Origin: Thaumasiovibrio occultus
GTDB taxonomy: Bacteria > Pseudomonadota > Gammaproteobacteria > Enterobacterales > Vibrionaceae
Direction of reading: 5' to 3'
Length of the DNA: 64,000 nt
NCBI GenBank assembly: GCA_019703815.1
Contig: AP023052.1
Location: 1,488,001-1,552,000, forward strand
Shown here: piece after piece, positions 10,798 through 60,334 of the stretch
Position numbering within the stretch: the first letter of the stretch is position 1
Layout: each line of letters begins with the position of its first letter
Program-made: the position numbers and the translations under genes
Notes under the pieces: generated by a model
Told to the model about the DNA's origin: nothing
The model's database searches: none
What the model saw: only the letters and a program-made list of their open reading frames with translations

Positions 10798-10806
10798 GTT
10801 TTCCCC

Positions 10807-39206: not shown

Positions 39207-39229
39207 ATAAAGAAGTCCTTTTCTGTCAG

Positions 39230-42581: not shown

Positions 42582-43229
42582 TCAGTAACTGCGCTCTACG
42601 CGTGGGTCAACACATTGGAAAATCTCACCAACGCTGTTGTCATCGTTAAGTAGCTGTGCCACCAAACGCGCGACTTCGCTACGGTGGATCACGCCGTGGA
42701 CTTCGATACCCTGTGTCAGCTCGCCGTTACCGGTGATCGGGCCGTTGATCAGGCCGCCTGGGCGGAGAATAGTAAAATCTAGGCCACTGCTGACTAACCA
42801 CGCTTCCGCTAGAGACTTTTCGCGTACTGCAAAGCCAAAGCCTTGGCGCGCACGCTCAGACAGGAATTGCCATGAATCGCCACAACCCAGTGATGTTACC
42901 AGTAAGAAGCGTTTGATCGCATTCGCTTCAAGCGCATCAATTAAATAACGGTGACCCGTGTAATCAACAGGTACGTCAGCGCCGAAGCTGCCCATGGTTG
43001 AGATAATCCATGCATCTTTTGGCAGTTGAGCAACAGTAGCTTCGACGCTGGCTTTGTCGGTCGCATCGCAAGCGAACACTTGTTGGCAGCAAGCCAGTGT
43101 TTCTTCTGATTTGCTTGGGTTACGAGAAATACCAATCACTTGGTAGCCGTTTTCGCTGAAATGTTGTGCCACAGCAAGACCTAGGCCGCTGCCAGCGCCC
43201 CATACTGCAACAGTTTGTTGATTACTCAT
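42582..43229 (-). CDS. NAD(P)-binding SDR-like reductase
   Basis: A 215-residue Rossmann-fold protein of the atypical short-chain dehydrogenase type (NmrA/BLVRB-like). The dinucleotide loop is VAVWGAGSGLGLAVAQHF with a following GISRNPSK, which suggests NADPH. Later motifs are FLLVTSLGCGDSW and SGLDFTILRPGGLINGP, as in flavin/biliverdin-IX-beta reductases and related proteins. There is no YxxxK pair. It ends 122 bp before hutD in the same direction, with AAGGAGCG before its ATG. A role in reducing a heme breakdown product is possible but is inference only. Confidence 0.75.
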   Translation of the reverse strand: MSNQQTVAVWGAGSGLGLAVAQHFSENGYQVIGISRNPSKSEETLACCQQVFACDATDKASVEATVAQLPKDAWIISTMGSFGADVPVDYTGHRYLIDALEANAIKRFLLVTSLGCGDSWQFLSERARQGFGFAVREKSLAEAWLVSSGLDFTILRPGGLINGPITGNGELTQGIEVHGVIHRSEVARLVAQLLNDDNSVGEIFQCVDPRVERSY

Positions 43230-43349
43230 ATTCGCTCCTTGGCAATTCCTTCGTTTGCGGCTTTTGTGTGGTGGGCTTTCAACGGCGGAGTTGCAAATCT
43301 TGTGATGAAAATCGCTAGCGCACAGTGCTTGGCGCTAGCAAAAAGGGAA

Positions 43350-44117
43350 TTAACTGACGATCACCGGATAGCCGTGAACAGGGTGAGGGATCACTGTAAC
43401 TTGCCACTGATAGACTTGTTCGATCAGCTCAGGCGTTAGCACGTCATCAGGTTTACCGTCTGCGACGATGTGACCTTGGTTTAGCATGATCACGCGGTCG
43501 CCATACTGCGCCGCTAAGTTGAGATCGTGAATAACCGCCACCACAGCAGCGCCGTTTTTCGCCATCTCTTTAGCCAGGCCCAGCGTTTTGTGTTGATGGC
43601 CAAGATCGAGCGCAGAGGTAGGTTCGTCGAGCAGCAGTGCTTGTTGCTCACCAGCTTGCGAGATCTGCGTCAGCACACGCGCAAGGTGTACACGTTGCTT
43701 TTCACCGCCAGAGAGCGAAGGAAACAGGCGATCTTCCAAGTGAGTGACATCGGTTTGCGCCATTTTCTGCGCGGCGATCTCTTCAATCTCTTTTTGTGAC
43801 GCGGCTAGGTTCAACCCGCCGAGTTCAACCACTTCTTTGGCGGTAAATGCAAAGGTCAGATTACTGTGTTGTGGCAACACGCCCAGATGTTTCGCCAGTT
43901 GCGCCGGTTTCCAATCTGCCAGTGCTTTACCAAAGTAAGCAACATCGCCTTTGGTTTTCCATTCGCGGCTGATCAGTTTGAGCAAGCTACTTTTACCTGT
44001 GCCGTTCGGCCCAAGCAAAATGGTAAATTCACCGGCTTTAATACTGGACGACACGTCATCCAGAATGCACTTAGTGCCCAGCGTCAGATTGAGGTTATCG
44101 AAGCTGATCGCACTCAT
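43350..44117 (-). CDS. hutD: Heme ABC transporter ATPase HutD
   Basis: A 255-residue ABC ATPase of the HmuV/FecE type. Walker A is GPNGTGKS at 36-43, the signature LSGGEKQR at 135-142, Walker B LLLDEP at 161-166 and the switch His in AVIHDLNLAAQYGDR. It powers heme import through HutC from the periplasm. Its start overlaps the hutC stop by 4 bp, so it is translationally coupled and is the last gene of the tonB1-exbB1-exbD1-hutBCD operon. Confidence 0.95.
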   Translation of the reverse strand: MSAISFDNLNLTLGTKCILDDVSSSIKAGEFTILLGPNGTGKSSLLKLISREWKTKGDVAYFGKALADWKPAQLAKHLGVLPQHSNLTFAFTAKEVVELGGLNLAASQKEIEEIAAQKMAQTDVTHLEDRLFPSLSGGEKQRVHLARVLTQISQAGEQQALLLDEPTSALDLGHQHKTLGLAKEMAKNGAAVVAVIHDLNLAAQYGDRVIMLNQGHIVADGKPDDVLTPELIEQVYQWQVTVIPHPVHGYPVIVS

Positions 44118-45157
44118 GCTAGTCGTCCTTTTTGTTGGATCAAAAGCCAGATAAAGAAAGGTGAACCCAATAGGGCTGTCACAATACCAACCGGCATATC
44201 CAGCGGTGCGACAATGGTTCGCGCGATCATATCGGCAACCAGCAGCAACAGTGCGCCAAGGATTGTGGCGAGCGGGATCAAACGGCGGTGATTTGGGCCG
44301 CAGATCATTCGTCCGACATGGGGAACGATCAGACCGATAAAGCCAATCATACCGGCCAGTGACACGGTCACACCGACACCTGCGGCGGTGAGCAAAATCA
44401 ACCGACGTTTCAGGGTTTGTACATCAATCCCCATGTGGTTGGCTTCGGCTTCACCTAACAGCAAGGCGTTGAGTTTGTCGGCATCGCGATAAAACAGCGC
44501 AAATAGAATGGTGAGCGCGATAAAGCCCAGAATGATGCCGTTCCAATCAGCACCAGCCAGCGAGCCCATGCTCCACAGCGACAGATCGCGTAGCGCTTGA
44601 TCGTCAGCAAAATAGTTCATTAGACCAAGACCGGCACCGGCAAGGGCACTGATCGCTACGCCAGCCAGTAGCATCATCGCTACAGAGGTGCCGTTAGCAC
44701 TGGTTCCGAGTTTGTAGACCAAGATCGTGGTCAGTGCCCCGCCAAGGAAAGCGAACATAGGCACAGTGCCGAACAGGAGCAAAATAGGGTAGCTAGCCGC
44801 GAGCGAGCCAAACAGAACAATGGCCATTGCCGCTCCAAGCGATGCACCGGCAGAGACACCAATAATGCCCGGATCGGCCAGCGGGTTACGAAACAGCCCT
44901 TGCATCACCGTACCGCACATCGCGAGCATACCGCCGACAGCGATACACAGTAGGGTGCGCGGTAAGCGAACCTGTTGGATCACCATCAGCACATGCTTAG
45001 GGAGATCAGTCTCACCGGGCAGCAGCGCGCGCAGGCTATCAAAGAACCCGATATCCATCGGGCCCAAGGTGATAGAGCTGACCACCGCAAGGTAGAGCGC
45101 AAACATTCCGCCTGCTAATACAGCACCTAACGACAAGCGGGAGGATTGATTACTCAT
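44114..45157 (-). CDS. hutC: Heme ABC transporter permease HutC
   Basis: A 347-residue FecCD-family permease with about nine to ten membrane segments. Family motifs seen are LPRTLLCIAVGGMLAMCGTV, FRNPLADPGIIGVSAGASLG and IGFIGLIVPHVGRMICGPNH, with a typical C-terminal MPVGIVTALLGSPFFIWLL. It would form the inner-membrane channel for heme together with HutD. Its ATG overlaps the TAA stop of hutB (TAATG). Confidence 0.95.
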   Translation of the reverse strand: MSNQSSRLSLGAVLAGGMFALYLAVVSSITLGPMDIGFFDSLRALLPGETDLPKHVLMVIQQVRLPRTLLCIAVGGMLAMCGTVMQGLFRNPLADPGIIGVSAGASLGAAMAIVLFGSLAASYPILLLFGTVPMFAFLGGALTTILVYKLGTSANGTSVAMMLLAGVAISALAGAGLGLMNYFADDQALRDLSLWSMGSLAGADWNGIILGFIALTILFALFYRDADKLNALLLGEAEANHMGIDVQTLKRRLILLTAAGVGVTVSLAGMIGFIGLIVPHVGRMICGPNHRRLIPLATILGALLLLVADMIARTIVAPLDMPVGIVTALLGSPFFIWLLIQQKGRLA

Positions 45158-46017
45158 TACTGCGCGCTACCTGCTTGAAACGTATTGTGTAAGGTTTCGG
45201 CGAGCTCGAGGCTTTGCAGGCCAAAGCCACCGATAATGGCAGTGCCTGGGATCTTAATTAGATTGTGATTTTGACCCGCTGGCGTGGCGGCAAGCAGGGG
45301 CATCTTCTCGAGAATACCGTCAAATCCACCCATGCTGTCCCAGTTACGCTCTGAAACTAGGATGTAGTCAGGTTGCAACTCAAGGATCGCTTCAAGTGAC
45401 ATTGGCTTGTACGACTCAAATTGTTCAGCCGTCGGGTTAACCGCGCCCGCTAATTCGATAACCGCTTCTACTGGCGTGTTTTTGCCTGCCACCGTCATAG
45501 GACGACCTTCCGCCATCATCACGAAAATCACGCTTGGCGCGTTGTCGAGGGTTTGGTTTTCTAACACATCAAGGCGTGCGTTGACCTTGTCTTTTAGCGC
45601 AGGCGCATTGGCTTCTGAGCCGGTTAGCTTCGCGACTTGATCGATTCGAGTGTTCAAGTCCGCACGATCGATACCCGTAGTGACGATTTCGATATCGACA
45701 CCGGCATTAGTCAGGGTGGAAATGGTGGTCTCTGGGCCCATTTCAGACGAGCCAATCAGCATGTCTGGCGCCAGCGCCATCAGACCTTCCGCCGACAGCT
45801 GACGGTGATAGCCCACTTGCGGGATGTCAGTGCCTTCAACGAAATGACGACTGGTTAAATCAACCGCAACCAAGGTGTCTTCGGCGCCCAACGCGTAAAC
45901 CAATTCAGTGACAGTAGAGCCAGCACTGATGATGCGAGGCTCTTTGTTATCAGCTTGTGCTGATGCGCCAAACGAGAGAGAGAGCATCAGCGCAGTAGTA
46001 AGGATTGATTTCTTCAT
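45157..46017 (-). CDS. hutB: Periplasmic heme-binding protein HutB
   Basis: A 286-residue substrate-binding protein with a Sec signal peptide (cleavage near FGASA). It has the hemin-binding (HmuT/HutB) pattern: RIISAGSTVTELVYALGAED, then VDLTSRHF, PQVGYHRQLSAEGLMALAPD and LILVSERNWDSMGGF-like stretches. Tyr and His residues in VGYHRQ are in the position of the HmuT-type heme ligands. It hands heme to HutCD. Its ATG overlaps the exbD1 stop (TAATG). Confidence 0.95.
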   Translation of the reverse strand: MKKSILTTALMLSLSFGASAQADNKEPRIISAGSTVTELVYALGAEDTLVAVDLTSRHFVEGTDIPQVGYHRQLSAEGLMALAPDMLIGSSEMGPETTISTLTNAGVDIEIVTTGIDRADLNTRIDQVAKLTGSEANAPALKDKVNARLDVLENQTLDNAPSVIFVMMAEGRPMTVAGKNTPVEAVIELAGAVNPTAEQFESYKPMSLEAILELQPDYILVSERNWDSMGGFDGILEKMPLLAATPAGQNHNLIKIPGTAIIGGFGLQSLELAETLHNTFQAGSAQ

Positions 46018-46436
46018 TAGTTCGATTCTTCCATAATAATTTGTGTTTGACTCAAGTTATGCTTTTGCATAAATGCCAGCATACGCATCATTTGTTCGAC
46101 ATTGGCTTGCTTGTCAGCGCCCAAAATAACCGGGTGATCTGGGTGCTCTTCAATCTTTAACAGCAAATCATGGGCAAACATTTCCCAATCAGAATAAGAC
46201 TTCCCGTTGATCGCCCATTGGGGATCGCTTGCGAGGATATTAATCGCAATCACATCTTGCTCGACGCTCTCGAGCACTTGTTGTTCTTCGGTTTGCGGCA
46301 CATCAATTTCCAGCGTTTGGATGTTGATACTGGCCGTGAGCAGCAGGAACACCATCACAATAAAAATGATATCGAGCAGCGGTGTCAGGTCGGGTTTGAA
46401 GTCAAACTGCTGACCAGGCTTTTGTGAGGTGATCAT
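46017..46436 (-). CDS. exbD: ExbD1, TonB energy-transducing protein
   Basis: A 139-residue ExbD. The single membrane helix DLTPLLDIIFIVMVFLLLTA carries the essential Asp (Asp22). A periplasmic domain follows (WAINGKSYSDWEMFAHDLLL, VILGADKQANVEQMMRML). The frame is open to 46475, but ATG 46436 overlaps the exbB1 stop in the standard ATGA manner and gives the usual length. With ExbB1 it uses the proton gradient to power TonB1. Confidence 0.95.
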   Translation of the reverse strand: MITSQKPGQQFDFKPDLTPLLDIIFIVMVFLLLTASINIQTLEIDVPQTEEQQVLESVEQDVIAINILASDPQWAINGKSYSDWEMFAHDLLLKIEEHPDHPVILGADKQANVEQMMRMLAFMQKHNLSQTQIIMEESN

Positions 46437-47125
46437 GCGGCACACTTCTCTTGTTTTTCGCAATGCTCTACGCAAGGTGATGGGCAGTGTGGCTTGTCGA
46501 TAGAAACGCCTTCAAGGTACAAGTTGCAATGGTTGAGGGTGTATTCGATTTTCGCGATCACTTTTTCAGACCACACCGCAAAGAGTTGTGAACAAGTAAT
46601 GGCAGGAAGCGCAATGATCAGGCCTGCGGCGGTGGTTGCCATGGCAAGGCCAAGACCGTCAGCCAGATCAGATGGTGTCACTGAACCCGTGGTTTGGGCG
46701 ATGCCTTCAAACATCTCAATAAGACCCAAAACGGTACCCAGCAGACCCAATAGCGGGCTGATCACACCGATGATATTCAGGATGCGCAGGCCAGATACAA
46801 AACGGCCACGTTGGGTGTGAAGCCAAATAGAAACCGCTTCTTCGCGAAGTTGCTTTGGAAAGTGGCGATGGTTAAACAGCATGGCAACGCCGCGAGAAAG
46901 AGGAGAGCGATTCTTCTGATGCTTTTCAGCAAACGCAGACAATTGATTTTGGTCGGCCACATCAAGCTCGTACAGCTCAGACAAAATAGCGCGGCCATGA
47001 AAACGACTATTGAGCAGGATGTAAACCAGACGCTCGAGGATGATCATTAGGGTGATCAGTGATAGCGCGGTTAGCGGCCAACTCATCACGCCTAGTTGCG
47101 CGTGGATTGAAGAAAAAACACTCAT
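46433..47125 (-). CDS. exbB: ExbB1, TonB energy-transducing protein
   Basis: A 230-residue MotA/TolQ/ExbB proton-channel protein. It has three membrane segments: the N-terminal MSWPLTALSLITLMIILERL, the middle IIGVISPLLGLLGTVLGLIE and the third with LGLAMATTAAGLIIALPAIT. A long cytoplasmic loop lies between the first two, and the C-terminus is Cys-rich (CPSPCVEHCEKQEKC), which is unusual and could bind metal. It lies between tonB1 and exbD1 and belongs to the same operon. Confidence 0.95.
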   Translation of the reverse strand: MSVFSSIHAQLGVMSWPLTALSLITLMIILERLVYILLNSRFHGRAILSELYELDVADQNQLSAFAEKHQKNRSPLSRGVAMLFNHRHFPKQLREEAVSIWLHTQRGRFVSGLRILNIIGVISPLLGLLGTVLGLIEMFEGIAQTTGSVTPSDLADGLGLAMATTAAGLIIALPAITCSQLFAVWSEKVIAKIEYTLNHCNLYLEGVSIDKPHCPSPCVEHCEKQEKCAA

Positions 47126-47251
47126 AATTACGACTCTCGGTATTCGTTAAAATTAGAATTTGTTGCAGTCTGCTGCTGCGTATCTTTCAACATACGGGCG
47201 TGTTGGTTATTGCCTGTGTATGTTGAGGCTCATGTTTTAAAGCCGATGTGA

Positions 47252-48043
47252 TTAATTAAGTTGAAAACGGACTGGCACTTTTACGCGGTAGGCAATCGCC
47301 GCCCCGTTTTCATACACTTTTGATAGACGCCACTTCGCCACATCTTTTAACGCCGCTTCATCCAGCACGGAGTGGCCTGATGATTCAATAATTTTCAGTG
47401 ATGTTTGACGAGCGTTCGCATCTAAACCAATTTCAAGCCACACCGTGCCTTCTAGGCCGCGTCGACGAGCGATACGCGGATAATTAACTGGGCCTGGGCG
47501 CACAGAGAACGTTGGGTTCTGTACCAATTTCGGTGTGGTTGGTTGAGCAAAGCTCACTGGCTCGTTCGTCGCTTCAGCTGGCTGCTCAACCGCTTCTGCA
47601 ACCTCGGTCTGCTTGGGTTCTTCCGGCGTCTGCTCTTCTCGCTTAGGCTCTTCTCGCTGAGGTTGTTCAATCGCAGGCTCTGGCTGTTTGACGATAGGCT
47701 CAGGTTCGCGAACAGGTGGTGGTGTGACCGGACGAGGTTTTGGCTCAACAGGTTTGGGTTGCTCAACCACTGGCTGAGGTACAGGTTTCGGTGTTTGAAC
47801 AATTGGTTCGGGTGGCGGCGGAGGCGGTGTCTCTTTAACCGGTGCGGCCACTTCTTCGATAGGCTCAGCGACAACCTCAGTTTTGGGTGCAGGCGGTTGC
47901 ACCGACACGAAGCTGATGCTGAGACTTTGGCCCGAATCTTCGCTCACCGAACCGATAGTGACTTCCGGCTTGGAAACTGAAAACGCCAAGTTATGGATGA
48001 GTAGGGAAGCAGCCCCGAATGCGATGTAACGACGAAAATTCAT
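47252..48043 (-). CDS. tonB: TonB1
   Basis: A 263-residue TonB. The N-terminal anchor (YIAFGAASLLIHNLAFS) includes the SxxxH-like motif needed for ExbB/ExbD contact. A long Pro/Glu/Lys-rich spacer follows (about 60-165, with PPPPPPEP and VEPKPRPVTPP), then the C-terminal domain from about 185: NYPRIARRRGLEGTVWLEIG to YRVKVPVRFQLN. It spans the periplasm to energise outer-membrane heme receptors. It is the first gene of the operon ending in hutD and is divergent from hutW across a Fur-type region. Confidence 0.96.
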   Translation of the reverse strand: MNFRRYIAFGAASLLIHNLAFSVSKPEVTIGSVSEDSGQSLSISFVSVQPPAPKTEVVAEPIEEVAAPVKETPPPPPPEPIVQTPKPVPQPVVEQPKPVEPKPRPVTPPPVREPEPIVKQPEPAIEQPQREEPKREEQTPEEPKQTEVAEAVEQPAEATNEPVSFAQPTTPKLVQNPTFSVRPGPVNYPRIARRRGLEGTVWLEIGLDANARQTSLKIIESSGHSVLDEAALKDVAKWRLSKVYENGAAIAYRVKVPVRFQLN

Positions 48044-48104
48044 TTCCAGAAAAGTGGGTTATGTGTCTATTTTCGCTCATTATGCACGGATTAAAAATAA
48101 GATC

Positions 48105-48123
48105 AATTATCAATTGCATTATC
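48105..48123. promoter_or_regulatory. Fur-box-like site between tonB1 and hutW
   Basis: AATTATCAATTGCATTATC is an imperfect palindrome (reverse GATAATGCAATTGATAATT) that fits the Fur consensus. It lies about 60 bp before tonB1 and 80 bp before hutW, so it could repress both directions. The V. cholerae counterparts are iron- and Fur-controlled. Confidence 0.65.
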
Positions 48124-48205
48124 ACTTTCAATTCGTATTATGGAATAACTCACTGATACTTAATGTAATCACAGTGTAAAAATTTTAGAACTACGTATAA
48201 GAAGT

Positions 48206-49561
48206 ATGATGGATTTAGATAATGTCGAGCTAGTTGGGCAGTCCACGCCTGACCCACTACGTTTTGCGTTCCCACGCAAAGCAATGGCTCATGCAGGCGG
48301 TAAAGTGCAGCCTGTTCCGCCGCCAATGGTTCAACAAAGCTTAGAGCAAGCATTTAGCGTCGCACCAGAGTCATCTGGCTCGCGTTGTCTATACGTACAC
48401 ATTCCGTTTTGCCGTGTGCGTTGTACCTACTGTAATTTCTTCCAATATGCGTCAAGTAAAGATCTGATCGCGGCTTATTTTGCGGCGTTGACGACCGAGC
48501 TAAAGCGCAAAGCTGCGCAACCTTGGACGCAAGCTGCGCCGTTCCAAGCGGTTTATATCGGTGGTGGTACGCCAACTGATCTCAACGCTGAGCAATTGAA
48601 AGCGCTCGGCACTATGATCCGTGAGCTGTTCCCATTAACGCCTGATTGTGAGCTGACCCTAGAAGGTCGTATCAACAAATTCAGCAATGAGAAGTTTGAG
48701 AGTGCGCTGGAAGGCGGCTTCAACCGTTTCTCTTTCGGTGTGCAAAGCTTTGATACCAAAGTTCGTCGCGCGGCTAAGCGTCTTGATGATGGCGATGTGG
48801 TTAAAAAACGCATTCAAGAATTGGTGGCTTACAACAGTGCGCCAATCGTGATCGACTTGCTGTTCGGCTTGCCGCACCAAACGCTAGAAGTGTGGGAGCA
48901 AGATCTAGAAGGCTACCTAGAATCTGGCGCGCATGGTGTCGACTTATACCAACTTATTGATATGCAAGGCCTACCAATGCACAAAATGGTAGAGCAGGGC
49001 AAATTGCCGCATCCAGCGGACACCCCAACGAAAGCGTCTATGTTCGAGCGCGGCGTCCAGTTTATGGCGCAGCACCATCAACGTCGTTTGAGCTGTAACC
49101 ACTGGGCCCGCGATAACCGTGAGCGCAGTATCTACAACAGCTTGGCGAAAACAACGGCAGAAGTATTGCCTGTTGGCGCGGGTGCGGGCGGTAACGTATC
49201 AGGTTTCCAAATGATGCATACCCGTAACATGGATGACTACATCAAAGCGATTCAAGCGGGTGAGTACCCGGTACCTATGATGATGCGTGCCGATAGCATG
49301 AGCCCAATCAATAGCCATGTAAAATCAGCATTTGACCGTGGCGTGCTATCGCGTAGTGGTTTAGACATGGCGTGTCAATCGATTGGGTTTAATGCGGGTT
49401 CGTCGCTTTTCGATGCACTGATGCCTCTATTCAAAGCGTGGGAAAAGAACGGCCTAGTGGCGGTCAATAATGATTACCTGACCCTGACGTTGGCGGGTGA
49501 GTTCTGGAATGTGACCTTGTCACAAAATACCATCAAAACCATCGCCACGCTTAACGCGTAA
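48206..49561 (+). CDS. hutW: HutW, radical SAM heme-utilisation protein
   Basis: A 451-residue HemN-like radical SAM protein. The iron-sulfur cluster motif CxxxCxxC is Cys69, Cys73 and Cys76 (HIPFCRVRCTYCNF), followed by the SAM-binding YIGGGTPTDL and TLEGRINKFS. It belongs to the HutW/ChuW group, which opens the heme ring without oxygen using SAM. The first gene of hutWXZ, divergent from tonB1. Two adjacent ATG codons start the frame, so the start could be one codon later. Confidence 0.95.
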   Translation: MMDLDNVELVGQSTPDPLRFAFPRKAMAHAGGKVQPVPPPMVQQSLEQAFSVAPESSGSRCLYVHIPFCRVRCTYCNFFQYASSKDLIAAYFAALTTELKRKAAQPWTQAAPFQAVYIGGGTPTDLNAEQLKALGTMIRELFPLTPDCELTLEGRINKFSNEKFESALEGGFNRFSFGVQSFDTKVRRAAKRLDDGDVVKKRIQELVAYNSAPIVIDLLFGLPHQTLEVWEQDLEGYLESGAHGVDLYQLIDMQGLPMHKMVEQGKLPHPADTPTKASMFERGVQFMAQHHQRRLSCNHWARDNRERSIYNSLAKTTAEVLPVGAGAGGNVSGFQMMHTRNMDDYIKAIQAGEYPVPMMMRADSMSPINSHVKSAFDRGVLSRSGLDMACQSIGFNAGSSLFDALMPLFKAWEKNGLVAVNNDYLTLTLAGEFWNVTLSQNTIKTIATLNA

Positions 49562-49643
49562 CAAGCCGCGTAATACCGAATTCAGTTAACAATAAATAAC
49601 TAAAGGAGCGAATAGATATCGCTCCTATTTTAAGGAGAAAGCC

Positions 49644-50159
49644 ATGTACACCACTTGTACATTTGACGAAGCCAAGCAGAAAGTAGCGGCATTGCTTGCA
49701 GAGCAACCGGGCCTAACGGTGACCGATCTTGCGGAAAAAGCTGACCTAACGGAAGCTGAGGCATGTCTAGCGCTACCAGAAGAACTTGTTCACGTTACTG
49801 ACGGTAAGCACGCAGAAGCGATTTGTACTCAGCTAACTACTTGGGGTCCTGTAACCACAATCGTTAACTCTTTTGGTTCAATTTTTGAAGTAAAAGCGCC
49901 ATTTCCAAAAGGCAAAACGAATCATGGTTACTACAACCTACTAAGCCGTGAAGGTTTAAATGGTCACCTACGTCTTGATCTGATCACCCACATCGGTTTC
50001 GTTAGCAAAATGTTCCACGGTATGGAAACCCACCACATTGCGTTCTTTAATGGTGAAGGTAACTGTGTATTCCGCGTTTACCTAGGTCGTGACAAAGCAC
50101 GTAACCTACTACCAGAACAAGTTGAACTATACCAAGCAATGAAGAAGGAATTCGTATAA
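49644..50159 (+). CDS. hutX: HutX, cytoplasmic heme carrier
   Basis: A 171-residue HutX/HuvX (ChuX-like) protein. Family features are the N-terminal helical part (LLAEQPGLTVTDLAEKADL) and the central sheet with WGPVTTIVNSFGSIFEVKAP, GKTNHGYYNLLS and HLRLDLITHIGFVSKMFHG. In V. cholerae HutX binds heme and passes it to HutZ. TAAGGAGAAAG lies before the ATG. The hutZ start codon overlaps its stop (TAATG), so the two are translationally coupled. Confidence 0.95.
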   Translation: MYTTCTFDEAKQKVAALLAEQPGLTVTDLAEKADLTEAEACLALPEELVHVTDGKHAEAICTQLTTWGPVTTIVNSFGSIFEVKAPFPKGKTNHGYYNLLSREGLNGHLRLDLITHIGFVSKMFHGMETHHIAFFNGEGNCVFRVYLGRDKARNLLPEQVELYQAMKKEFV

Positions 50160-50695
50160 TGGACGTTAAACAAGAGCGCCTACAATCACGCCTTGTGCCG
50201 GAAATGCAAGAGTTCCGCGACAAATGCCAAACACTGCAACTTGCCACTATTGGTAAAGACGGTTTGCCAACCGCAAGCTATGCACCATTTGCTTTTACCG
50301 AAGCGGGTTTCTTTATTTTGATCAGTGATATCGCAACACATGGTCAAAACCTAATTCATAACAAAGCCTTGTCAATCATGATGATTGAAGACGAAAGCAG
50401 CGCAAAACACATTTATGCGCGTCGTCGTCTGTCATTTGAAACCGCAGCAACCCAAGTAGAGCGTGATTCTGCGCGCTGGGTTGAGGGCGTTGAAGCGCTA
50501 CAAGCGCGTTTCGGTGAGATCATCGACAACCTAAGCAACCTTGGTGACTTCCGTCTGTATCTGCTAGAGCCAGAAAAAGGTCGTTACGTGAAGGGCTTCG
50601 GTCAAGCATTTGACGTCAGTGGTTTCGATATGGTGGACATTATTCACCTGAACGAAGGCCATGTGCAGCGTCAAAAAGAAGAAAACGCTAAGTAA
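50159..50695 (+). CDS. hutZ: HutZ, heme-degrading enzyme
   Basis: A 178-residue HutZ/HugZ family protein with a split-barrel flavin-reductase-like fold (TLQLATIGKDGLPTASYAPF, ARRRLSFETAA, FGEIIDNLSNLGDFRLYLLEP). The C-terminal loop has two His residues (163 and 168, IIHLNEGHVQ); one should be the proximal heme ligand, which is His170 in V. cholerae HutZ. It breaks the heme ring with oxygen and a reductant, releasing iron. It acts downstream of HutX in the cytoplasm. Confidence 0.95.
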   Translation: MDVKQERLQSRLVPEMQEFRDKCQTLQLATIGKDGLPTASYAPFAFTEAGFFILISDIATHGQNLIHNKALSIMMIEDESSAKHIYARRRLSFETAATQVERDSARWVEGVEALQARFGEIIDNLSNLGDFRLYLLEPEKGRYVKGFGQAFDVSGFDMVDIIHLNEGHVQRQKEENAK

Positions 50696-50802
50696 TTAAC
50701 GCGTCGCGTTAATTAACGTCATATAACCTGTTCTTTGTCGTTGTTTTTAACTCTCTGGCTATTATGAGTTTTCAAAGATTAATTTAGAGAGCAGGTTATT
50801 TA

Positions 50803-50820: not shown

Positions 50821-50893
50821 AGCATATTAAATAAACCATAACACTGTGAGCACGGTGGGAAAGGATTCGTTTCTCTTAAGTCTGGAAAATAAA

Positions 50894-53026: not shown

Positions 53027-53107
53027 GGTGCTGAACCTTAGCCGATAAAATCAACGTAGACGTTATAAGACGTTGCGCTGACTAAGGCGATGTAACGTAT
53101 ATAAATT

Positions 53108-53155
53108 AAGCCCTCGCGCGATCTTTGCGAAAGCATTGCGCGGAGGGCTTGTTGC
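53108..53155 (+). terminator. Hairpin after the heme receptor gene
   Basis: AAGCCCTC and GAGGGCTT (53108-53150) enclose a GC-rich inner stem, with TTTT a few bases downstream. It ends the receptor transcript and separates it from the ABC gene. Confidence 0.6.
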
Positions 53156-53321
53156 GTTTTCTCTGTCCCTTTCTGGGCGGGCGCGAACGTTGAAAGTTCG
53201 TTAACCGCTCAAACCACGGCGCTATTATTGTTAAATCAGCATTAGAAACCGTCGAAGGGTGTAGAGACAACATAATAAAAACAAAGTGACATAAAAGTCA
53301 TTTAGACACGAGGAAAAGTAA

Positions 53322-55121
53322 GTGAGCGAAGTGCGCCTAACGTCATTGTCAGCACGCTGGATATTTCAGCAGGCAATGAAACAGAAGAAACGTTTGGTTA
53401 TCGCCAATGTGATTGCGGTTTTGGCAACCTTGATCAGCGTGCCGATCCCGCTGTTGCTGCCATTAATGGTGGATGAAGTGTTGCTTGAAAAGCCCGCTGG
53501 CGGCGTCGCGGCGATGAACACGATATTGCCGCAAGCATGGCAAACCCCAACGGCGTACATTGTGTTTGCGTTGGTGATGATCATCTTGATGCGCGCGTCG
53601 AGCCAAGCTTTAAACATTATTCAAAGCCGCCAATTTACCTTGGTATCGAAGTCGCTCACTTGTCTGATTCGCCAACAATTACTCGACAAATTGGGCCGCG
53701 TCAGCATGCGCCAATATGAAGAAAAGGGCAGTGGCGGCATTACTTCGCATCTGGTAACGGATGTTGAAACCATTGATAAATTCGTTGGTGATACCCTAAG
53801 CCGCTTTGTGGTTGGGATCTTAACCGTGATCGGTACTGCCGCGATTTTGCTGTGGCTTGATTGGCGTTTAGGTCTGTTTATTTTGCTGCTTAACCCAGTC
53901 ATTGTGTACCTCTCCAAGAAACTCGGGCAACGAGTTAAACATCTTAAAAAGCAAGAAAACCAATCATTTGAACGCTTTCAACAACGCTTGGTAGAAACCT
54001 TAGAAGGCTTGTATCAACTGCGAGCAGCTAACCGCGAGAAAGACTACCTTGCCTCGCTTAAAGACGACGCCGAAGGCATTCGCCATGACGCTGACAAATA
54101 CGCGTGGCAATCGGAAGCGGCCAATCGTATGTCGTTTTTGATGTTCCTGATCGGCTTTGAGATCTTCCGTGCTGTAGCCATGATCATGGTGCTGTTTAGC
54201 GATCTGTCTATCGGCCAGATTTTCGCAGTGTTCGGTTACCTCTGGTACATGTTAGGCCCAGTGCAAGAACTGTTGGGCATTCAATATGCGTGGTTTAGTG
54301 CATCGGCCGCGATCAATCGCCTCAACGGCTTGTTAGGCTTGGAAGAAGAGCATCGCCCAGCGCCGACTGTGAACCCATTTAACGACGCGCGCTCAGTCGA
54401 TGTCGAATTTAAAGATTTGGTCTTTTCTTACGATAACGAGCGTAACGTTCTGAACGGGTTGAACCTACATATTCCCGCAGGCAAGCGCGTGGCCTTGGTT
54501 GGTTCATCTGGCGGCGGTAAGTCGACGCTGATCCAGCTCTTGATGGGGATCTACCGCAAGGGCAGTGGCGACATTTTGGTAAACGGTGAAACCATTGAGG
54601 CAGTGAGCTACGAGTCGTTGCGTGATCGCATGGCGGTGGTATTGCAACAACCGATCATCTTTAACGATTCTCTGCGTCAAAACCTCACATTAGGTGATGA
54701 ACGCTACAGTGATGAACAACTTTGGCAGGCGCTAGAAGTGGCGCAGTTGTCGGATGTGACCTCGAAACTCTCAGACGGGCTGGAATCACAACTGGGAAGA
54801 CAAGGCGTACGTCTATCGGGCGGGCAGCGTCAGCGCTTGGCGATTGCGCGCATGATCTTAACCGATCCTGAAATCGTGATCCTCGATGAAGCAACATCAG
54901 CGCTGGACACTGCGACAGAAGCGGCGCTACATGATGCACTGCAGCGTTTCTTGGCCAACCGAACTACGTTGATCGTCGCGCACCGACTGTCAGCGGTGAA
55001 ACAGGCCGATCTGATCTACGTTCTGGAAGATGGCGTGGTGACGCAAAGCGGGCATCACTCCGAGCTGGTCAATGCGCCAGGCCTGTACCAAACGCTGTAC
55101 GGTAATTTGCAAGCGAGTTAA
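53322..55121 (+). CDS. ABC exporter, fused permease and ATPase
   Basis: A 599-residue half-transporter. About six membrane segments fill residues 20-300 and an ATPase domain follows, with Walker A GSSGGGKST at 394-402, Q-loop VVLQQPIIFND, signature LSGGQRQR at 498-505, Walker B IVILDEATSALD and the switch HRLS. This is the MsbA-like type-IV exporter layout, usually a homodimer. The start is GTG 53322, with GAGGAAA upstream. It lies between the heme receptor and the TtpC operon. The substrate is unknown; export of heme, peptides or lipids is possible. Confidence 0.9.
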   Translation: MSEVRLTSLSARWIFQQAMKQKKRLVIANVIAVLATLISVPIPLLLPLMVDEVLLEKPAGGVAAMNTILPQAWQTPTAYIVFALVMIILMRASSQALNIIQSRQFTLVSKSLTCLIRQQLLDKLGRVSMRQYEEKGSGGITSHLVTDVETIDKFVGDTLSRFVVGILTVIGTAAILLWLDWRLGLFILLLNPVIVYLSKKLGQRVKHLKKQENQSFERFQQRLVETLEGLYQLRAANREKDYLASLKDDAEGIRHDADKYAWQSEAANRMSFLMFLIGFEIFRAVAMIMVLFSDLSIGQIFAVFGYLWYMLGPVQELLGIQYAWFSASAAINRLNGLLGLEEEHRPAPTVNPFNDARSVDVEFKDLVFSYDNERNVLNGLNLHIPAGKRVALVGSSGGGKSTLIQLLMGIYRKGSGDILVNGETIEAVSYESLRDRMAVVLQQPIIFNDSLRQNLTLGDERYSDEQLWQALEVAQLSDVTSKLSDGLESQLGRQGVRLSGGQRQRLAIARMILTDPEIVILDEATSALDTATEAALHDALQRFLANRTTLIVAHRLSAVKQADLIYVLEDGVVTQSGHHSELVNAPGLYQTLYGNLQAS

Positions 55122-55233
55122 TTACCGGTTTATAAGTAAGTTAAAATTTGGCGGCAGATCTGGTAGATTTCGACCAGGATCCACTTAATTGATGTAATGG
55201 CTGTAAAAGTTGTAAATGCCACTTCTAATGAGA

Positions 55234-55252
55234 CATATTATCATTTACATTT
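55234..55252. promoter_or_regulatory. Fur-box-like site upstream of the TtpC operon
   Basis: ATATTATCATTTACATTTG, reverse AAATGTAAATGATAATAT, fits the AATGATAAT Fur core. It lies about 50 bp before the DUF3450 start at 55300 and inside the longer open frame, which supports the later start. Confidence 0.55.
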
Positions 55253-55299
55253 GTGCATCACTTAATATCTCACGACCTGTCAGAGACGACACAGATATC

Positions 55300-56106
55300 A
55301 TGACCGCCAAATTACATATAGTGGCAGCCTCCATCATGGGGTTGGCCACCGCTCTGTCTGCAACATCACTTTCTGCAGCCAGCCTCGATTCGGCGCAACG
55401 CGTCGAAGCCACTAATCAGCAAGAGGGTATCGTTACCCAACAGCGCATCGATGTCAGTGCCGAAAATGCACTGGATTTCCGCGCTGATATTGTTCGCTTA
55501 GAACAAGAGATTGCTGAACTCACTATTTACCGCGATCATCTCCAAACGCTTACCGAAGATCAGGCACTTGAGCTAACTAACATCGACCAACAACTGGTTG
55601 AAGTGAAAGAAACTCGCCGTGGCATCGTGCCCTTGATGTACAACATGCTAGCTGAATTGAAAGATCATATTAACGCTGACCGTCCAATTCAGCGCAGCCA
55701 ACGTTTAGCTCGGGTCGAACGTCTTGAGCAAATGATGGGTCAGTCTGATATTGCCGAAGGTGAGAAGTTCCGCCGTTTACTTGAAGCGTGGCAAATTGAA
55801 ATGGATTACGGCATCAAGTTGGGCGCTTATCGTGACAATGTCACCATTGATGGTGTTGAGCGTGAAGCCGAACTGGTCAATTTAGGTCGTGCGGTATTAG
55901 TTGCGCGTAGCGCAGACAAAGCCAATTACTGGAGCTGGAACGACAGCGCAAAAGATTGGCAGGCCATCGACAGTGCGGATATTCCCGACATCGAACTTGC
56001 CTTTGCACTCAGCCAAAAAGCGACAACGCCAGCCATTCTAAACTTGCCGGTATCACTGTCAGCCAATGTCGAGACACCCAATAGCACTATCGAGGGGGCG
56101 CAGTAA
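55300..56106 (+). CDS. DUF3450 protein of the TtpC/TonB2-type operon
   Basis: A 268-residue exported protein. A signal peptide (cleavage near SLSA) is followed by a long coiled-coil (about 35-110, FRADIVRLEQEIAELTIYRD) and a C-terminal domain with MGQSDIAEGEKFRRLLEAWQ and YWSWNDSAKDW. This is the DUF3450 pattern of the first gene in Vibrio ttpC-exbB-exbD-tonB clusters. Its precise role is unknown; a link with TtpC in the periplasm is likely. The ATG at 55300 was chosen because the earlier in-frame ATG at 55216 lies upstream of a Fur-like site. Confidence 0.85.
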   Translation: MTAKLHIVAASIMGLATALSATSLSAASLDSAQRVEATNQQEGIVTQQRIDVSAENALDFRADIVRLEQEIAELTIYRDHLQTLTEDQALELTNIDQQLVEVKETRRGIVPLMYNMLAELKDHINADRPIQRSQRLARVERLEQMMGQSDIAEGEKFRRLLEAWQIEMDYGIKLGAYRDNVTIDGVEREAELVNLGRAVLVARSADKANYWSWNDSAKDWQAIDSADIPDIELAFALSQKATTPAILNLPVSLSANVETPNSTIEGAQ

Positions 56107-57443
56107 TGAAGACGAAATCTCTACTTATTTCCGGCTCGATCTTACTGAGCGCATTGTCTTTGCCGTCGTACGCCTTGGTTGATGCTACGCAAACGGCATT
56201 AGCGCAAGAGCGCGAAGTCAACCAAGAGCGCATCGCCGAATTCAGTGCAGAAGAATTAGCATTGAAACAACGTCGTGACGCGTTAGCGGCACAAAAAGCG
56301 GCGCTTGATGCGGAAATTGAAGCGCTTTCAACGACCTTTGGCGAAAATGAAATTCAAATTGCCGAGCAGCAAAAACTGTTGGATTTGGAATCCGGTAGTT
56401 TAGGCGAGCTGTTCGGTATTGTACGTCAAACCGCAAAAGAACTAGACGCGACGTTGTCACAATCTGTTGTCTTTGCCGATCAACCCGCGCAGTTAGACAA
56501 CCTCAATACCATTGTCGAAGCCAACGCGCTGCCAACCATTGCTGAGCTCAATGCACTATGGCAAACCATGGTGATTCATGCCAAGAACAGTGGCACCGCA
56601 GCTGCTATTACTGTTCCCGTAGTTGATGGCAACGGTGTTATTCATGATCAAACCGTAGTTCGCATTGGTGACTTGGGCCTTCTGGGCGAGCAAGGCTACT
56701 TGAGCTGGGATGGTACATCAGCACGTTACTATGGAAAACAACCGGCTGACTTACCGTCGCTTAACGAAGCAAAATCACTAGGTGACGGCGTCACATTTAT
56801 GCCACTAGACCCTAGTCGTGGCGACATCATTGCCCGTCTTGCCGACAACCCAAGCCTGTTGCAACGTATAGCGCAAGGTGGCTTCGTCGGTAAAGTAATC
56901 ATTGCGCTGTTGTTGATTGGTTTAGGTATCGCGCTTTATCGTGGTTTCCAACTGTTTACATTGAGCGGTCGTATTTCTAAGCAGCTCAAAACCCCAGATA
57001 CGCCAAATGATAACAACCCGCTAGGCCGCATTCTTAATGTTTATCAGGAAGAGCGCTTCCACAGTACCGAAGCGTTAGAGTTGCGTTTACTTGAGCAAGT
57101 GTTGGATGAGCAGCAAGGCTTGGAGCAAGGCTTGTCGATGATCAAACTGTTGGCAGCGATGGCGCCGATGCTAGGTCTGCTGGGTACGGTGACGGGTATG
57201 ATTGAAACCTTCCAAGTGATCACCCAATACGGCAATGGCGATCCAACCATTATGGCGGGCGGTATCTCGATGGCGTTGATCACCACGGTCTTGGGCTTGG
57301 TGGCAGCAATGCCGCTACTACTCGCGCATAACCTGTTGAGTACCAAAGTTGATAACCTGCGTAATCTGCTTGAGAAGCAAGGGATTGGCCTAGTTGCTCA
57401 GCGTGCAGAAATGGGTAATTCCAAGGAGCGAGTAGCAGCCTAA
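56106..57443 (+). CDS. ttpC: TtpC, TonB2-system ExbB-like protein
   Basis: A 445-residue protein with a signal peptide (LSLPSYA), a periplasmic coiled-coil (about 30-85), a periplasmic domain (including GYLSWDGTSARYYG) and a C-terminal MotA/TolQ/ExbB proton-channel domain. Membrane segments lie about 268-288 (VIIALLLIGLGIALYRGF), 350-372 (AMAPMLGLLGTVTGMIETF) and 390-412. TtpC is a part of the Vibrio TonB2/TonB3 systems, needed for siderophore or heme transport. Its start overlaps the previous stop, and its stop overlaps exbB (TAATG). Confidence 0.93.
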   Translation: MKTKSLLISGSILLSALSLPSYALVDATQTALAQEREVNQERIAEFSAEELALKQRRDALAAQKAALDAEIEALSTTFGENEIQIAEQQKLLDLESGSLGELFGIVRQTAKELDATLSQSVVFADQPAQLDNLNTIVEANALPTIAELNALWQTMVIHAKNSGTAAAITVPVVDGNGVIHDQTVVRIGDLGLLGEQGYLSWDGTSARYYGKQPADLPSLNEAKSLGDGVTFMPLDPSRGDIIARLADNPSLLQRIAQGGFVGKVIIALLLIGLGIALYRGFQLFTLSGRISKQLKTPDTPNDNNPLGRILNVYQEERFHSTEALELRLLEQVLDEQQGLEQGLSMIKLLAAMAPMLGLLGTVTGMIETFQVITQYGNGDPTIMAGGISMALITTVLGLVAAMPLLLAHNLLSTKVDNLRNLLEKQGIGLVAQRAEMGNSKERVAA

Positions 57444-58000
57444 TGGTCGACGTATCTTTACTGACAGCCGGCTTTGGCGATGGATGGTGGCTGCGGATCA
57501 GCCACTTTATGACGCAAGGCGGTCAGGTTCTCTGGCTGTTAGCAGTGGTCGTTCTGTTTATGTGGGTATTAATCATCGAGCGCATTAGCTACTTGCGCTT
57601 TACTTGGCCTGCGTCGCGCCAAGGGATCATTTCCCAGTGGCGCGCAAGAGGCGAGTTTGAAAGCTGGTATGCCCATGCCGTCAAGTCTAGTTTGCTCAAC
57701 AAGGCCCATTACCAACTGCACTTCAATTTGAACATGATTAAGTTGTTGGTTTCGATTTGTCCGATGATAGGTTTGCTCGGTACGGTTACCGGAATGATTT
57801 CGGTGTTCGATATTATGTCGAGTGCGGGTAATGGCGATCCTAAGCTGATGGCGACGGGGATCTCAATGGCGACTTTGCCAACGATGGCCGGTATGGTCGC
57901 AGCTATCACCGGTATGTTCGTCCATGCGCGTTTGCAAAAAGCCTGTGACAACCGTGAAGCAACAATGGAAAAATTATTAAGGAATCAAGGATGCGCCTAA
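57443..58000 (+). CDS. exbB: ExbB of the TtpC-dependent TonB system
   Basis: A 185-residue ExbB with three membrane segments (VLWLLAVVVLFMWVLIIERI; SICPMIGLLGTVTGMISVFD; TLPTMAGMVAAITGMFVHA). It is clearly shorter than ExbB1 and lacks its Cys-rich tail, which fits the second system. It would form the proton channel with ExbD. The last 10 bp overlap exbD. Confidence 0.95.
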   Translation: MVDVSLLTAGFGDGWWLRISHFMTQGGQVLWLLAVVVLFMWVLIIERISYLRFTWPASRQGIISQWRARGEFESWYAHAVKSSLLNKAHYQLHFNLNMIKLLVSICPMIGLLGTVTGMISVFDIMSSAGNGDPKLMATGISMATLPTMAGMVAAITGMFVHARLQKACDNREATMEKLLRNQGCA

Positions 58001-58395
58001 ATCGTCCTCGTCGTCAGCGTGAAGAAGCGCAGGTGGATCTGACCTCCATGCTCGATATCGTCTTTATCATGTTGATTTTCTTCATTGTCACCAGTTCATT
58101 TGTTAATGAATCGGGTATTGATGTTAATCGACCACAAGCGTCTAACGCGGTGAGTCAAAAAGAAGCCGGTATCTTTGTCGCGGTCACGGCTAACAACGAA
58201 ATCTACATTGATAAGCGTTTAATCGACCAAGAGCGCATTCAGCCGACATTGGAGCGCTTGCTGTTGGATAAACCTGAAACTGCGTTAGTGATACAGGCTG
58301 ATGAAGACGCGTCAAGCGGCACAGTAGTGCGGGTGATGGATGCAGCGCAAAGCGCGGGGATCACCCAAATCGCCTTGGCGGCGGAGCAGCCGTAA
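57991..58395 (+). CDS. exbD: ExbD of the TtpC-dependent TonB system
   Basis: A 134-residue ExbD with a basic cytoplasmic start (MRLNRPRRQREE) and a membrane helix containing the essential Asp22 (VDLTSMLDIVFIMLIFFIVT). A periplasmic domain follows (NEIYIDKRLIDQERIQPTLE, ALVIQADEDASSGTVVRVMD). It overlaps exbB by 10 bp and touches tonB without a gap. Confidence 0.95.
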   Translation: MRLNRPRRQREEAQVDLTSMLDIVFIMLIFFIVTSSFVNESGIDVNRPQASNAVSQKEAGIFVAVTANNEIYIDKRLIDQERIQPTLERLLLDKPETALVIQADEDASSGTVVRVMDAAQSAGITQIALAAEQP

Positions 58396-59070
58396 ATGCG
58401 TCGAGTGTTTTTCGCTATTGGTTTAGGCCTGTTGATGACGACCGCGCTGTTCACGCTAATGGCGTGGATGGTCAATCCAGTCAGTGACAAGGTAACAGAT
58501 AAGCGCGCGCCGTTGAGCTTTGATATGTTGATGACGGAAAAAGAAGAAACCGCGCAGCGTCGCCAGCGCACGTTGCCTGAGCCTCCGCCACCACCAGAGC
58601 CCGAGCCGCCCGCGCCACAACCCGAAATGCCACGTGCAGCAGCGGCGGTTAGCAGCCAACCCGTGACACCAGTGCTTGATTTAGCCGTCGCGGTAAACCA
58701 AGTTAATATCGCGGTACCTTCTTTGGGCCAATACAGTGTTGAACAGCCGGTTGAAGTGGCAGCCGTCGCAGCAGCGCCCGTAACAGGCACGGGCGATCAA
58801 GATGTGATGCCAATTTCTCGTGTTGAACCGCGTTATCCTGCGCGCGCATTGCGTCAAGGGATCACCGGTTACGTGCAGCTAAGCTTCACTATTGATGCAT
58901 CCGGTAGCCCAACCGATATCAACGTAGTTTCTGCAGAGCCTGCGCGGGTGTTTAATCGCGAGGCTATTCGTGCGTTGAGTCGTTGGCGTTATCAGCCGAT
59001 GGTAGTGAACGGTGAGGCCGTGGCACAACCCGGTCGTCGTGTCACGATTGAGTTCCAATTAGCAGAATAA
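58396..59070 (+). CDS. tonB: TonB of the TtpC-dependent system (TonB2/TonB3-type)
   Basis: A 224-residue TonB with an N-terminal anchor (FFAIGLGLLMTTALFTLMAW), a short Pro-rich stretch (LPEPPPPPEPEPPAPQPEMP) and a C-terminal domain from about 130 (ISRVEPRYPARALRQGITGY, ending VTIEFQLAE). It is shorter than TonB1 and its periplasmic spacer much shorter. Vibrio TonB2 proteins are about 206 residues. I cannot decide between TonB2 and TonB3 without alignment. Starts directly after the exbD stop. Confidence 0.93.
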   Translation: MRRVFFAIGLGLLMTTALFTLMAWMVNPVSDKVTDKRAPLSFDMLMTEKEETAQRRQRTLPEPPPPPEPEPPAPQPEMPRAAAAVSSQPVTPVLDLAVAVNQVNIAVPSLGQYSVEQPVEVAAVAAAPVTGTGDQDVMPISRVEPRYPARALRQGITGYVQLSFTIDASGSPTDINVVSAEPARVFNREAIRALSRWRYQPMVVNGEAVAQPGRRVTIEFQLAE

Positions 59071-59089
59071 GGCAGTGGATAGGATCAAG

Positions 59090-60334
59090 ATGAAAATACA
59101 ACCTTGGCTTTTTGCTGTTACTTTATTGCTAGCCCAACCTTTTATGGCATCGCAGGCTGGTGCGGTCGAATTATCGCAAGGCGCAGCGGCCAAAGTGCAA
59201 CGTGCGCAAGAGCTTTATAACAATGGAAATATGCAAGGGGCGATTCAAAGCTTAAGTGGGTTTGAATCCTCACGTCCTTCCGATACCGCTTATGTAAATC
59301 GCATGCTAGGCATTTTTCATTGGCAAGCGGGTAACGGCAGTGCCGCGATCAAGCATCTTAAACTGTCGTTAGATAGTGATGCGCTGCCGGCCGAGCTTAA
59401 TCTTCCAACCCGCCAAATGTTGGCCGATTTTTACTTAACCGAAGGCCAGTACCGTTCGGCGTTAACTTATTACTATCCGTTGACCCGTGGTTATGGTCAG
59501 CAAAGCAAACGCCGTGAAGTGTGGTGGCGTATTGCCCAAAGTCATTATCAGTTAGAAGAGTGGGCAAAAACCATTGATGGACTGGCTGGTTTTGAGTCCA
59601 ACGGCGGCAAGATGACGGTAAACCATTACCGTATGCGTTTAGGCTCGCAATTGAATTTACAGCGCTGGAAAGGGGCAACCCAAACGTTGGAAAAACTGAT
59701 TGCTCTGGAGCCAAGAGAAGTGAAATGGTTCCAACACTTAGCCAATTTGCAGCTGCGCACCGACAACCCGCGCGCGGCAATGGAAACCTTGGCTATTGCT
59801 CATCACAACCGTCTGGGTTTAACGCATCAAGATCTCAACACGCTGGTGCAGCTCTATGCGAATCAAGGTTTACCGGATCGCGCCGCCCGTTTGTATACCG
59901 ATTTGAATCCCACCACGGCGAAAGAGTTTGCCAAGCTTGCTAACTACTGGCAGCTTGCCAAGGAGTGGGATAACGCCATCGCGGCATTAAAGCGTGCGGT
60001 TGAGGGCGATAATCAATACCGCTTGCGCTTGGCACAGTTGCAATTGCAGCAGCAGTATTATGAGGCGGCATTGGCGAACCTGAATCTTGTCAGTGGCGGC
60101 GGTGATGCGATAGTGCTATGTAAAATACAAGCTAACTATCAATTGGAACGTTACAGTGTCGCGCTTTCATTGGCACAACAGGCGTATGCACAAACCTCAT
60201 CATCGGCGTTTGAATCTTGGGTTAACTTCCTGCAAAGCAAGATCGACAGTATTAAGGCTCGCGAAGCAGACGATGCTGAGTTAGCTTTGGCAAGCGACAA
60301 TATCGATAACGCACAAGTGGCACCGGTTGATTGA
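59090..60334 (+). CDS. TPR protein of the TtpC/TonB operon
   Basis: A 414-residue exported protein. A signal peptide (cleavage near ASQAGA) is followed by a chain of TPR-like helical repeats: ELYNNGNMQGAIQSLSGFES, then NRMLGIFHWQAGNGSAAIKH and WRIAQSHYQLEEWAKTIDGL, later FAKLANYWQLAKEWDNAIAA. In V. cholerae a gene of this type (VC1543) closes the same operon. A scaffold role for periplasmic complexes is a fair inference. ATG 59090 is preferred over an in-frame GTG at 59075 because AGGA then lies 6 nt upstream. A terminator follows. Confidence 0.88.
   Translation: MKIQPWLFAVTLLLAQPFMASQAGAVELSQGAAAKVQRAQELYNNGNMQGAIQSLSGFESSRPSDTAYVNRMLGIFHWQAGNGSAAIKHLKLSLDSDALPAELNLPTRQMLADFYLTEGQYRSALTYYYPLTRGYGQQSKRREVWWRIAQSHYQLEEWAKTIDGLAGFESNGGKMTVNHYRMRLGSQLNLQRWKGATQTLEKLIALEPREVKWFQHLANLQLRTDNPRAAMETLAIAHHNRLGLTHQDLNTLVQLYANQGLPDRAARLYTDLNPTTAKEFAKLANYWQLAKEWDNAIAALKRAVEGDNQYRLRLAQLQLQQQYYEAALANLNLVSGGGDAIVLCKIQANYQLERYSVALSLAQQAYAQTSSSAFESWVNFLQSKIDSIKAREADDAELALASDNIDNAQVAPVD

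Follow-up and report, generated by a model that had tools for sequence, protein, structure and literature searches.

A hut block with TonB1 lies directly beside a TonB2 operon in Thaumasiovibrio occultus, an arrangement specific to its genus among sampled Vibrionaceae

The stretch of 64,000 nucleotides analysed here, referred to as the window, covers bases 1488001-1552000 of contig 1 (3.14 Mb) of Thaumasiovibrio occultus, whose genome (G000) comprises 4.50 Mb in two contigs. Between positions 43350 and 60334 it contains a hut block for heme uptake and degradation, which includes the TonB1 system and runs directly into the operon of a second TonB system. The minus-strand half consists of hutDCB, exbD1, exbB1, and tonB1; the plus-strand half extends from hutW through hutX, hutZ, a TonB-dependent heme/hemoglobin receptor, and an MsbA-like ATP-binding cassette (ABC) exporter to ttpB, ttpC, exbB2, exbD2, tonB2, and ttpD. 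In Vibrio cholerae, the tonB1-hut and ttpC-tonB2 clusters are located on different chromosomes. A preliminary description of the window had pointed out the adjacency of TonB1/HutBCD, HutWXZ, a heme receptor, and a TtpC system, and the open reading frames and family scores bear this out (Table 1). The junction of the two clusters is a real, genus-specific rearrangement of parts which are themselves already known.

HutW, HutX, and HutZ all score above the curated cut-offs of their heme-degradation families. The genes tonB, exbB, and exbD adjoin hutBCD, the arrangement by which a TonB1 system is recognized, with the scores of exbB1 and exbD1 below the curated cut-offs; ExbB1, ExbD1, and HutC were named from best matches below cut-off together with their position and matching genes in other hut loci, and HutB and HutC were also placed in trees with proteins from other hut loci. 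The N-terminus of TonB1 contains SLLIH, an instance of the SxxxH motif. The receptor at 50846-53026 carries NPNL with a preceding histidine. The start of ttpB at 55300 is a predicted one, its open frame beginning at 55216, and the six-gene run ttpB-ttpC-exbB-exbD-tonB-ttpD typical of TonB2 is complete.

Table 1 Features of the hut-TonB2 region in the window (positions refer to the window; SDR short-chain dehydrogenase/reductase, SAM S-adenosylmethionine, TPR tetratricopeptide repeat)
Feature	Position	Strand	Basis and remarks
HmuY-like lipoprotein	38109-39206	-	PF14064 29.0 bits (cut-off 27), match over a short stretch only
Second heme-type receptor	39230-41197	-	TIGR01785 197 bits, below cut-off (317)
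SDR-type oxidoreductase	42582-43229	-	PF13460 112 bits; adjoins hutD
hutD	43350-44117	-	ATPase; NCBIfam PRK13548 327 bits (cut-off 261)
hutC	44114-45157	-	Permease; best NCBIfam match BtuC 253 bits, under its cut-off; position; homologues in other hut loci
hutB	45157-46017	-	Periplasmic heme carrier; Peripla_BP_2 129 bits (cut-off 27.5)
exbD1	46017-46475	-	TolQ/TolR/ExbB/ExbD-type match below NCBIfam cut-off; 71% identical gene in the C2 hut locus of sister genome G005
exbB1	46433-47125	-	TolQ/TolR/ExbB/ExbD-type match below NCBIfam cut-off; 86% identical gene in the C2 hut locus of G005
tonB1	47252-48043	-	Pfam TonB_C 70.3 bits (cut-off 24.6)
Conserved 20-base element	48101-48120		GATCAATTATCAATTGCATT; Fur-box-like; divergent tonB1/hutW promoter
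hutW	48206-49561	+	Radical-SAM heme enzyme; TIGR04107 567 bits, over cut-off
hutX	49644-50159	+	Heme carrier; TIGR04108 182 bits, over cut-off
hutZ	50159-50695	+	TIGR04110 263 bits, over cut-off
TonB-dependent heme/hemoglobin receptor	50846-53026	+	TIGR01786 448 bits (cut-off 324); TIGR01785 388 bits (cut-off 317)
MsbA-like ABC exporter	53322-55121	+	Pfam ABC_membrane and ABC_tran; MsbA is the top NCBIfam match, at 358 bits under its cut-off
Candidate Fur-type site before ttpB	55224-55248		Two overlapping 13/19 consensus matches
ttpB (DUF3450)	~55300-56106	+	PF11932 216 bits; genes follow the order known from V. vulnificus tonB2 (PMC6957404)
ttpC	56106-57443	+	MotA_ExbB domain over Pfam cut-off
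exbB2	57443-58000	+	PF01618 79.5 bits, over cut-off
exbD2	57991-58395	+	PF02472 105.3 bits, over cut-off
tonB2	58396-59070	+	TonB_C 78.8 bits, over Pfam cut-off
ttpD	59075-60334	+	TPR families; also closes the V. vulnificus tonB2 operon (PMC6957404)

The second system is assigned to the TonB2 type because a tree with a ttpB3 primer site as its anchor places TtpC among those of TonB2 systems. Among the family matches listed, TtpC proteins form two classes by identity to the window's TtpC, 47-59% and 32-40%, the exceptions being broken frames in G083 and G047. A TtpC tree of 41 rows splits these classes with a support of 100/98 and places the window's protein in the 47-59% class; in an anchored quick tree of 29 rows, which omitted four of the thirteen TonB3-type rows of the larger tree, they are split with a Shimodaira-Hasegawa-like approximate likelihood ratio (SH-aLRT) support of 100 and the window again lies on the TonB2 side. 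The anchor is the V. vulnificus ttpB3 primer (PMC6957404), which matches exactly in two of 34 genomes searched, G194 and G198, in each roughly 1 kb ahead of a TtpC from the second (32-40%) class. In G194, a receptor match precedes ttpB3 at the TonB3 locus and none is shown at the TonB2 locus. According to PMC6957404, the Vibrio TonB2 operon encodes TtpB2, TtpC2, ExbB2, ExbD2, TonB2, and TtpD2, the V. vulnificus TonB3 operon is headed by a receptor gene, and the TtpC proteins of the two V. vulnificus systems are 37% identical. The window's operon thus resembles the Vibrio TonB2 system in all six genes, their order, and the tree position of TtpC, and differs from it in adjoining a hut block rather than lying elsewhere; HutD-like ABC ATPase matches of 25-35% identity occur close to some of the other TonB2 loci. 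With the V. vulnificus TonB3 system it shares the operon plan, whereas TtpC proteins of that type are only 32-40% identical to the window's and form a separate clade, and the gene directly before ttpB is here the ABC exporter and not a receptor.

A whole-genome search of G000 found two TonB_C proteins, both inside the block, and the TonB-dependent receptors of this organism (12 Plug-domain matches, 11 of them over cut-off) therefore appear to depend on this single block. The same genome was searched for another ttpC cluster, and no full-length match besides the window's ttpC was obtained; three other matches were partial, two of them being exbB2 and exbB1 of the block.

The distribution of the joint was assessed in a sample of 296 genomes. 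HutW was found in 193 of them, representing eight of 13 genera, and TtpC was located in 190 of these, match lists having been completed for the genomes with HutW; the three lacking a TtpC (G145, G151, G244) were left out of the distance count. The starts of the two genes lie less than 10 kb apart in two of the 190 genomes, less than 30 kb apart in three, and on one contig in 63, and they are on separate contigs in 127, a figure which includes drafts; draft assemblies can conceal linkage, and five genomes have both genes near a contig start. Both cases below 10 kb, G000 and G005, are the sole two sampled genomes of the genus, and no TtpC lies within 10 kb of HutW in any other sampled genus that has HutW. 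The order is therefore not an ordinary one in the family, and of the two explanations offered in the preliminary description, a rearranged or an ancestral order, these counts favour the former. In the third case below 30 kb, G225 (L040-L041), TonB2 and hut are separated by 19.6 kb; by eye, the intervening stretch contains a zinc- or manganese-like ABC uptake set.

The hut half, in contrast, has a common family layout that includes its ABC gene, as follows from a survey of 67 hut loci besides the window's, from 66 genomes. There, hutBCD lies beside hutWXZ in 65 loci, an ABC exporter (at least 60% identity) is present in 24, a receptor (at least 40%) in 23, and ttpC is in view in one, that of the sister genome G005; the joint of hut and TonB2 is rare and genus-specific. 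The window resembles the Vibrio hut-tonB1 locus in hutBCD with tonB1-exbB1-exbD1, the divergent hutWXZ, the shared promoter element, and the receptor and ABC exporter, which often follow hutZ there. It differs from that locus in running directly into the TonB2 operon and in being preceded by an SDR-type gene, a second heme-type receptor, and an HmuY-like lipoprotein. The MsbA-like exporter is a frequent and apparently uncharacterized neighbour of hutWXZ; one guess is that it exports heme or porphyrin. Among open-licence papers, we found none on hut-TonB2 linkage, on TonB1 loss, or on the hut-linked exporter.

The sister genome G005 has two hut loci. Its C2 locus reads SDR-hutDCB-exbD1-exbB1-tonB1-hutWXZ-receptor-ABC, with no TonB2 in the stretch. 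Its C1 locus, which has neither TonB1 nor the receptor, reads hutDCB-hutWXZ-ABC-ttpB-ttpC-exbB2-exbD2-tonB2-ttpD and occupies the same chromosomal site as the window's block, with matching genes on both flanks, in inverted orientation and with unmatched stretches between them. In the 41-row tree, the TtpC proteins of G000 and G005 are sisters (95/94).

The divergent tonB1/hutW promoter contains the conserved element at 48101-48120. When the best match in front of hutW is taken from each of 68 hut loci, the window's among them, 23 loci from different genera have the element unchanged and 55 retain at least 17 of its 20 positions (both raw counts, without a shuffled control); four of the six hut loci lacking TonB1, described below, have it in identical form. 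By eye, its core resembles the Fur site of V. vulnificus hvtA as given in PMC6813434, and Fur presumably binds it. Its conservation is striking for a Fur-type site. We give it more weight than the weak Fur sites scored by consensus, of which the window contains 18 with a score of at least 13, compared with about 5.5 on one strand in mononucleotide shuffles. G005 has a 13/19 Fur-like site at the same place before ttpB. Promoter and terminator scans of the window gave only the level of shuffled sequence.

The gene content, the TonB2 identity of the second system, the scarcity of the joint, and its recurrence at the same chromosomal site of G005 are established above. Beyond that, we consider it quite probable that a common hut-tonB1 block was brought beside the single TonB2 operon of the genome, with the hut-linked ABC exporter as the joint. 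The partner that moved was likely the hut block, the TonB2 operon lying near an old chromosomal neighbourhood close to hrpA. In the window, hrpA is located at 14468-18376, about 25 kb left of hutD. In a set of 79 few-contig genomes, no more than 150 kb separate hrpA from the best TonB2-type TtpC in 16 of the 34 genomes that have both on the same contig, and from HutW in six of 26; both counts include both members of the genus, weaker second TtpC copies are omitted, and the HutW of G079 is a distant 38% match. These distances therefore make us lean towards hut as the incomer.

Several observations weigh against this history or parts of it. The proximity to hrpA is a statistical argument, since TtpC and hrpA are more than 150 kb apart in 18 of the 34 genomes with both on one contig, and the Fur-type site before ttpB is weak, a score of at least 13 being reached by 67 of 1500 pieces of 170 bases drawn at random from the window. 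Between the matching flanks, many window genes have no match in the G005 stretch, and the pairing of the TtpC proteins of G000 and G005 is unstarred in the quick tree. The hut gene trees, in which long branches are in play, do not fit simple descent. The hut proteins of G000 are closer to those of G005 C2 than to those of G005 C1, the copy that shares their site; approximately unbiased (AU) tests reject the groupings of G000 with G005 C1 (p 0.023) and of G005 C1 with G005 C2 (p 0.014), and a group of G000 with both G005 copies that leaves out G269 falls on the edge of rejection (p 0.0499). The ABC gene itself showed no breakpoint. Since the hut trees misfit simple descent, the linkage may have had one origin followed by replacement of hut genes, or two origins.

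The alternative that fares best takes up this misfit and assumes two diverged hut lineages in the ancestor of the genus, with the hut genes on the TonB2 side replaced in the window's lineage by genes of the G005 C2 type together with TonB1. We regard it as possible, at somewhat less than an even chance. It agrees with the AU tests and the concatenated hut tree, in which G005 C1 branches first, with the presence of both types in G005, and with the common site in G000 and G005. The absence of a recombination breakpoint in the ABC gene argues against it, and the long end branches of G005 C1 and C2 could mislead the concatenated tree. Moreover, G269, a member of another genus, falls into the same clade, so that transfer between genera is also in play: in the trees of HutW, HutC, HutB, and HutZ, G269 forms a group of starred support with G000 and both G005 copies, the same group appears unstarred in the ABC tree (83/66), and G000 and G269 are not rejected as a pair (p 0.22). 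Because the TtpC of G269 is not close to those of G000 and G005, its hut locus may have been passed from one genus to another. A chimeric ABC gene, in part like that of G005 C2 and in part like that of C1, was also considered and rejected, as informative sites are mixed along its length (48 versus 45).

The C1 locus of G005 is one of six hut loci, out of 65, in which exbB1 and its neighbours are absent beside hutW, the others being those of G269, G263, G034, G273, and G230 (the six loci together labelled L042, L098, L142, L143, L153, and L037); tonB1 and exbD1 are likewise absent from their layouts. Six of 65 is not a random rate, as the sample included purposely chosen relatives of G263. A whole-genome TonB count covered 11 genomes, with G034, G273, and G230 outside it. 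In this count, the only TonB_C protein of G269 belongs to its TonB2 locus and the two of G263 belong to its TonB2 and TonB3-type loci, and both keep hutBCD and hutWXZ; these two genomes thus seem to be without TonB1 altogether. According to PMC6957404, TonB1 occurs in every member of the Vibrionaceae and always with hutBCD; contrary to that statement, TonB1 seems not to be universal in the family. By eye, the locus of G034 (L142) contains a transposase-like frame of 397 amino acids (10909-12102) between hutW and hutB, the expected place of tonB1.

These loci bear on a second alternative, namely that the joint was selected: TonB2 co-expressed with hut would take over heme uptake and make TonB1 dispensable, and the window, having both, would be an intermediate. 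The loss of tonB1-exbB1-exbD1 from the TonB2-linked hut copy of G005, the six TonB1-less loci to which this copy belongs, and the retention of hutBCD and hutWXZ in G269 and G263 without a TonB_C at a TonB1 locus are in its favour. However, ttpC is in view at only one of the six loci without TonB1, and linkage is therefore not needed for the loss of TonB1; in addition, G005 retains TonB1 in its second hut copy, and the window retains it as well. We consider such a takeover unlikely. The same low expectation applies to its extended form, in which TonB2 was recruited into the heme locus of this genus as a dedicated heme energizer and the window captures a transitional stage towards a loss of TonB1 that seemingly occurred repeatedly in a family said always to keep it.

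That the joint is ancestral to the family and was broken elsewhere is far less credible still: neither cluster keeps to a single position within the family, which would be in line with it, but the joint is seen in a single genus, and several genomes of another genus have TonB2 near hrpA with HutW far off or on another contig. The preliminary description had also raised a TonB3-type second system, which shares the six-gene layout and would agree with a receptor gene upstream of ttpB; with the ABC gene intervening, both TtpC trees placing the window in the first class, and the second class anchored by the exact ttpB3 primer site in G194 and G198 and the receptor match of G194, this can practically be dismissed. 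Misassembly between 53.0 and 55.3 kb is very unlikely, because G005 repeats the ABC-ttpB joint at the same chromosomal site in an independent genome (C1), and besides, the receptor-ABC joint recurs in G005 C2, G014, G271, and others, and G000 is assembled as two contigs.

The limits of the block given in the preliminary description, which began at 42582, hold for the named genes and have to be corrected on the left side, where 42582-43229 encodes the SDR-type oxidoreductase (present in three of the 67 other hut loci) and the heme region continues to the receptor and HmuY-like lipoprotein at 38109-41197. This pair recurs beside the hut block of G269, where the lipoprotein is 53% identical, and the lipoprotein was seen in none of the other 66 of the 67 hut stretches; the lipoprotein gave no sequence match in the PDB up to an E value of 1. 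The receptor at 39230-41197 carries GYRVPDLKERYY and NPEL. By eye, three small membrane proteins around this pair (36586-37389, 37410-37961, and 41675-42442, the last without a Pfam match) have a similar C-terminal end, RHG.FD. or RHGLLD, and look like paralogues. Further left, the translations of the minus-strand genes at 6173-12054 resemble, by eye, a resistance-nodulation-division (RND) efflux set with outer-membrane channel and adaptor.

By analogy with known relatives, low iron would lift Fur repression at the divergent hut promoter and at a separate promoter before ttpB. Heme would then be drawn through the outer-membrane receptors by TonB1 or TonB2, each energized by its ExbB/ExbD pair and TonB2 working in addition with TtpB, TtpC, and TtpD, and would reach HutB and HutCD before its degradation by HutW together with HutX and HutZ. 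In V. vulnificus, either TonB1 or TonB2 can serve the receptor HupA, and the same is true of HvtA (PMC6813434). By analogy, either TonB can probably serve the heme receptors of the window, and linkage is not needed for shared use, since the V. vulnificus receptors manage this from separate loci; the earlier suggestion that linkage could let heme receptors draw on both systems is thus unnecessary. What linkage may alter, given that either TonB probably serves these receptors, is inheritance, co-regulation, and co-expression, and not the pairing of receptor and TonB.

T. occultus G000 is a natural strain whose whole findable TonB supply is one locus, and its sister species has one hut copy with TonB1 and the other with TonB2. 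Together with the TonB1-less genomes, they make it testable whether TonB2 alone runs heme uptake in nature. The printed claim of a universal TonB1 in the Vibrionaceae is called into question, a by-product which is perhaps of more interest than the joint itself.

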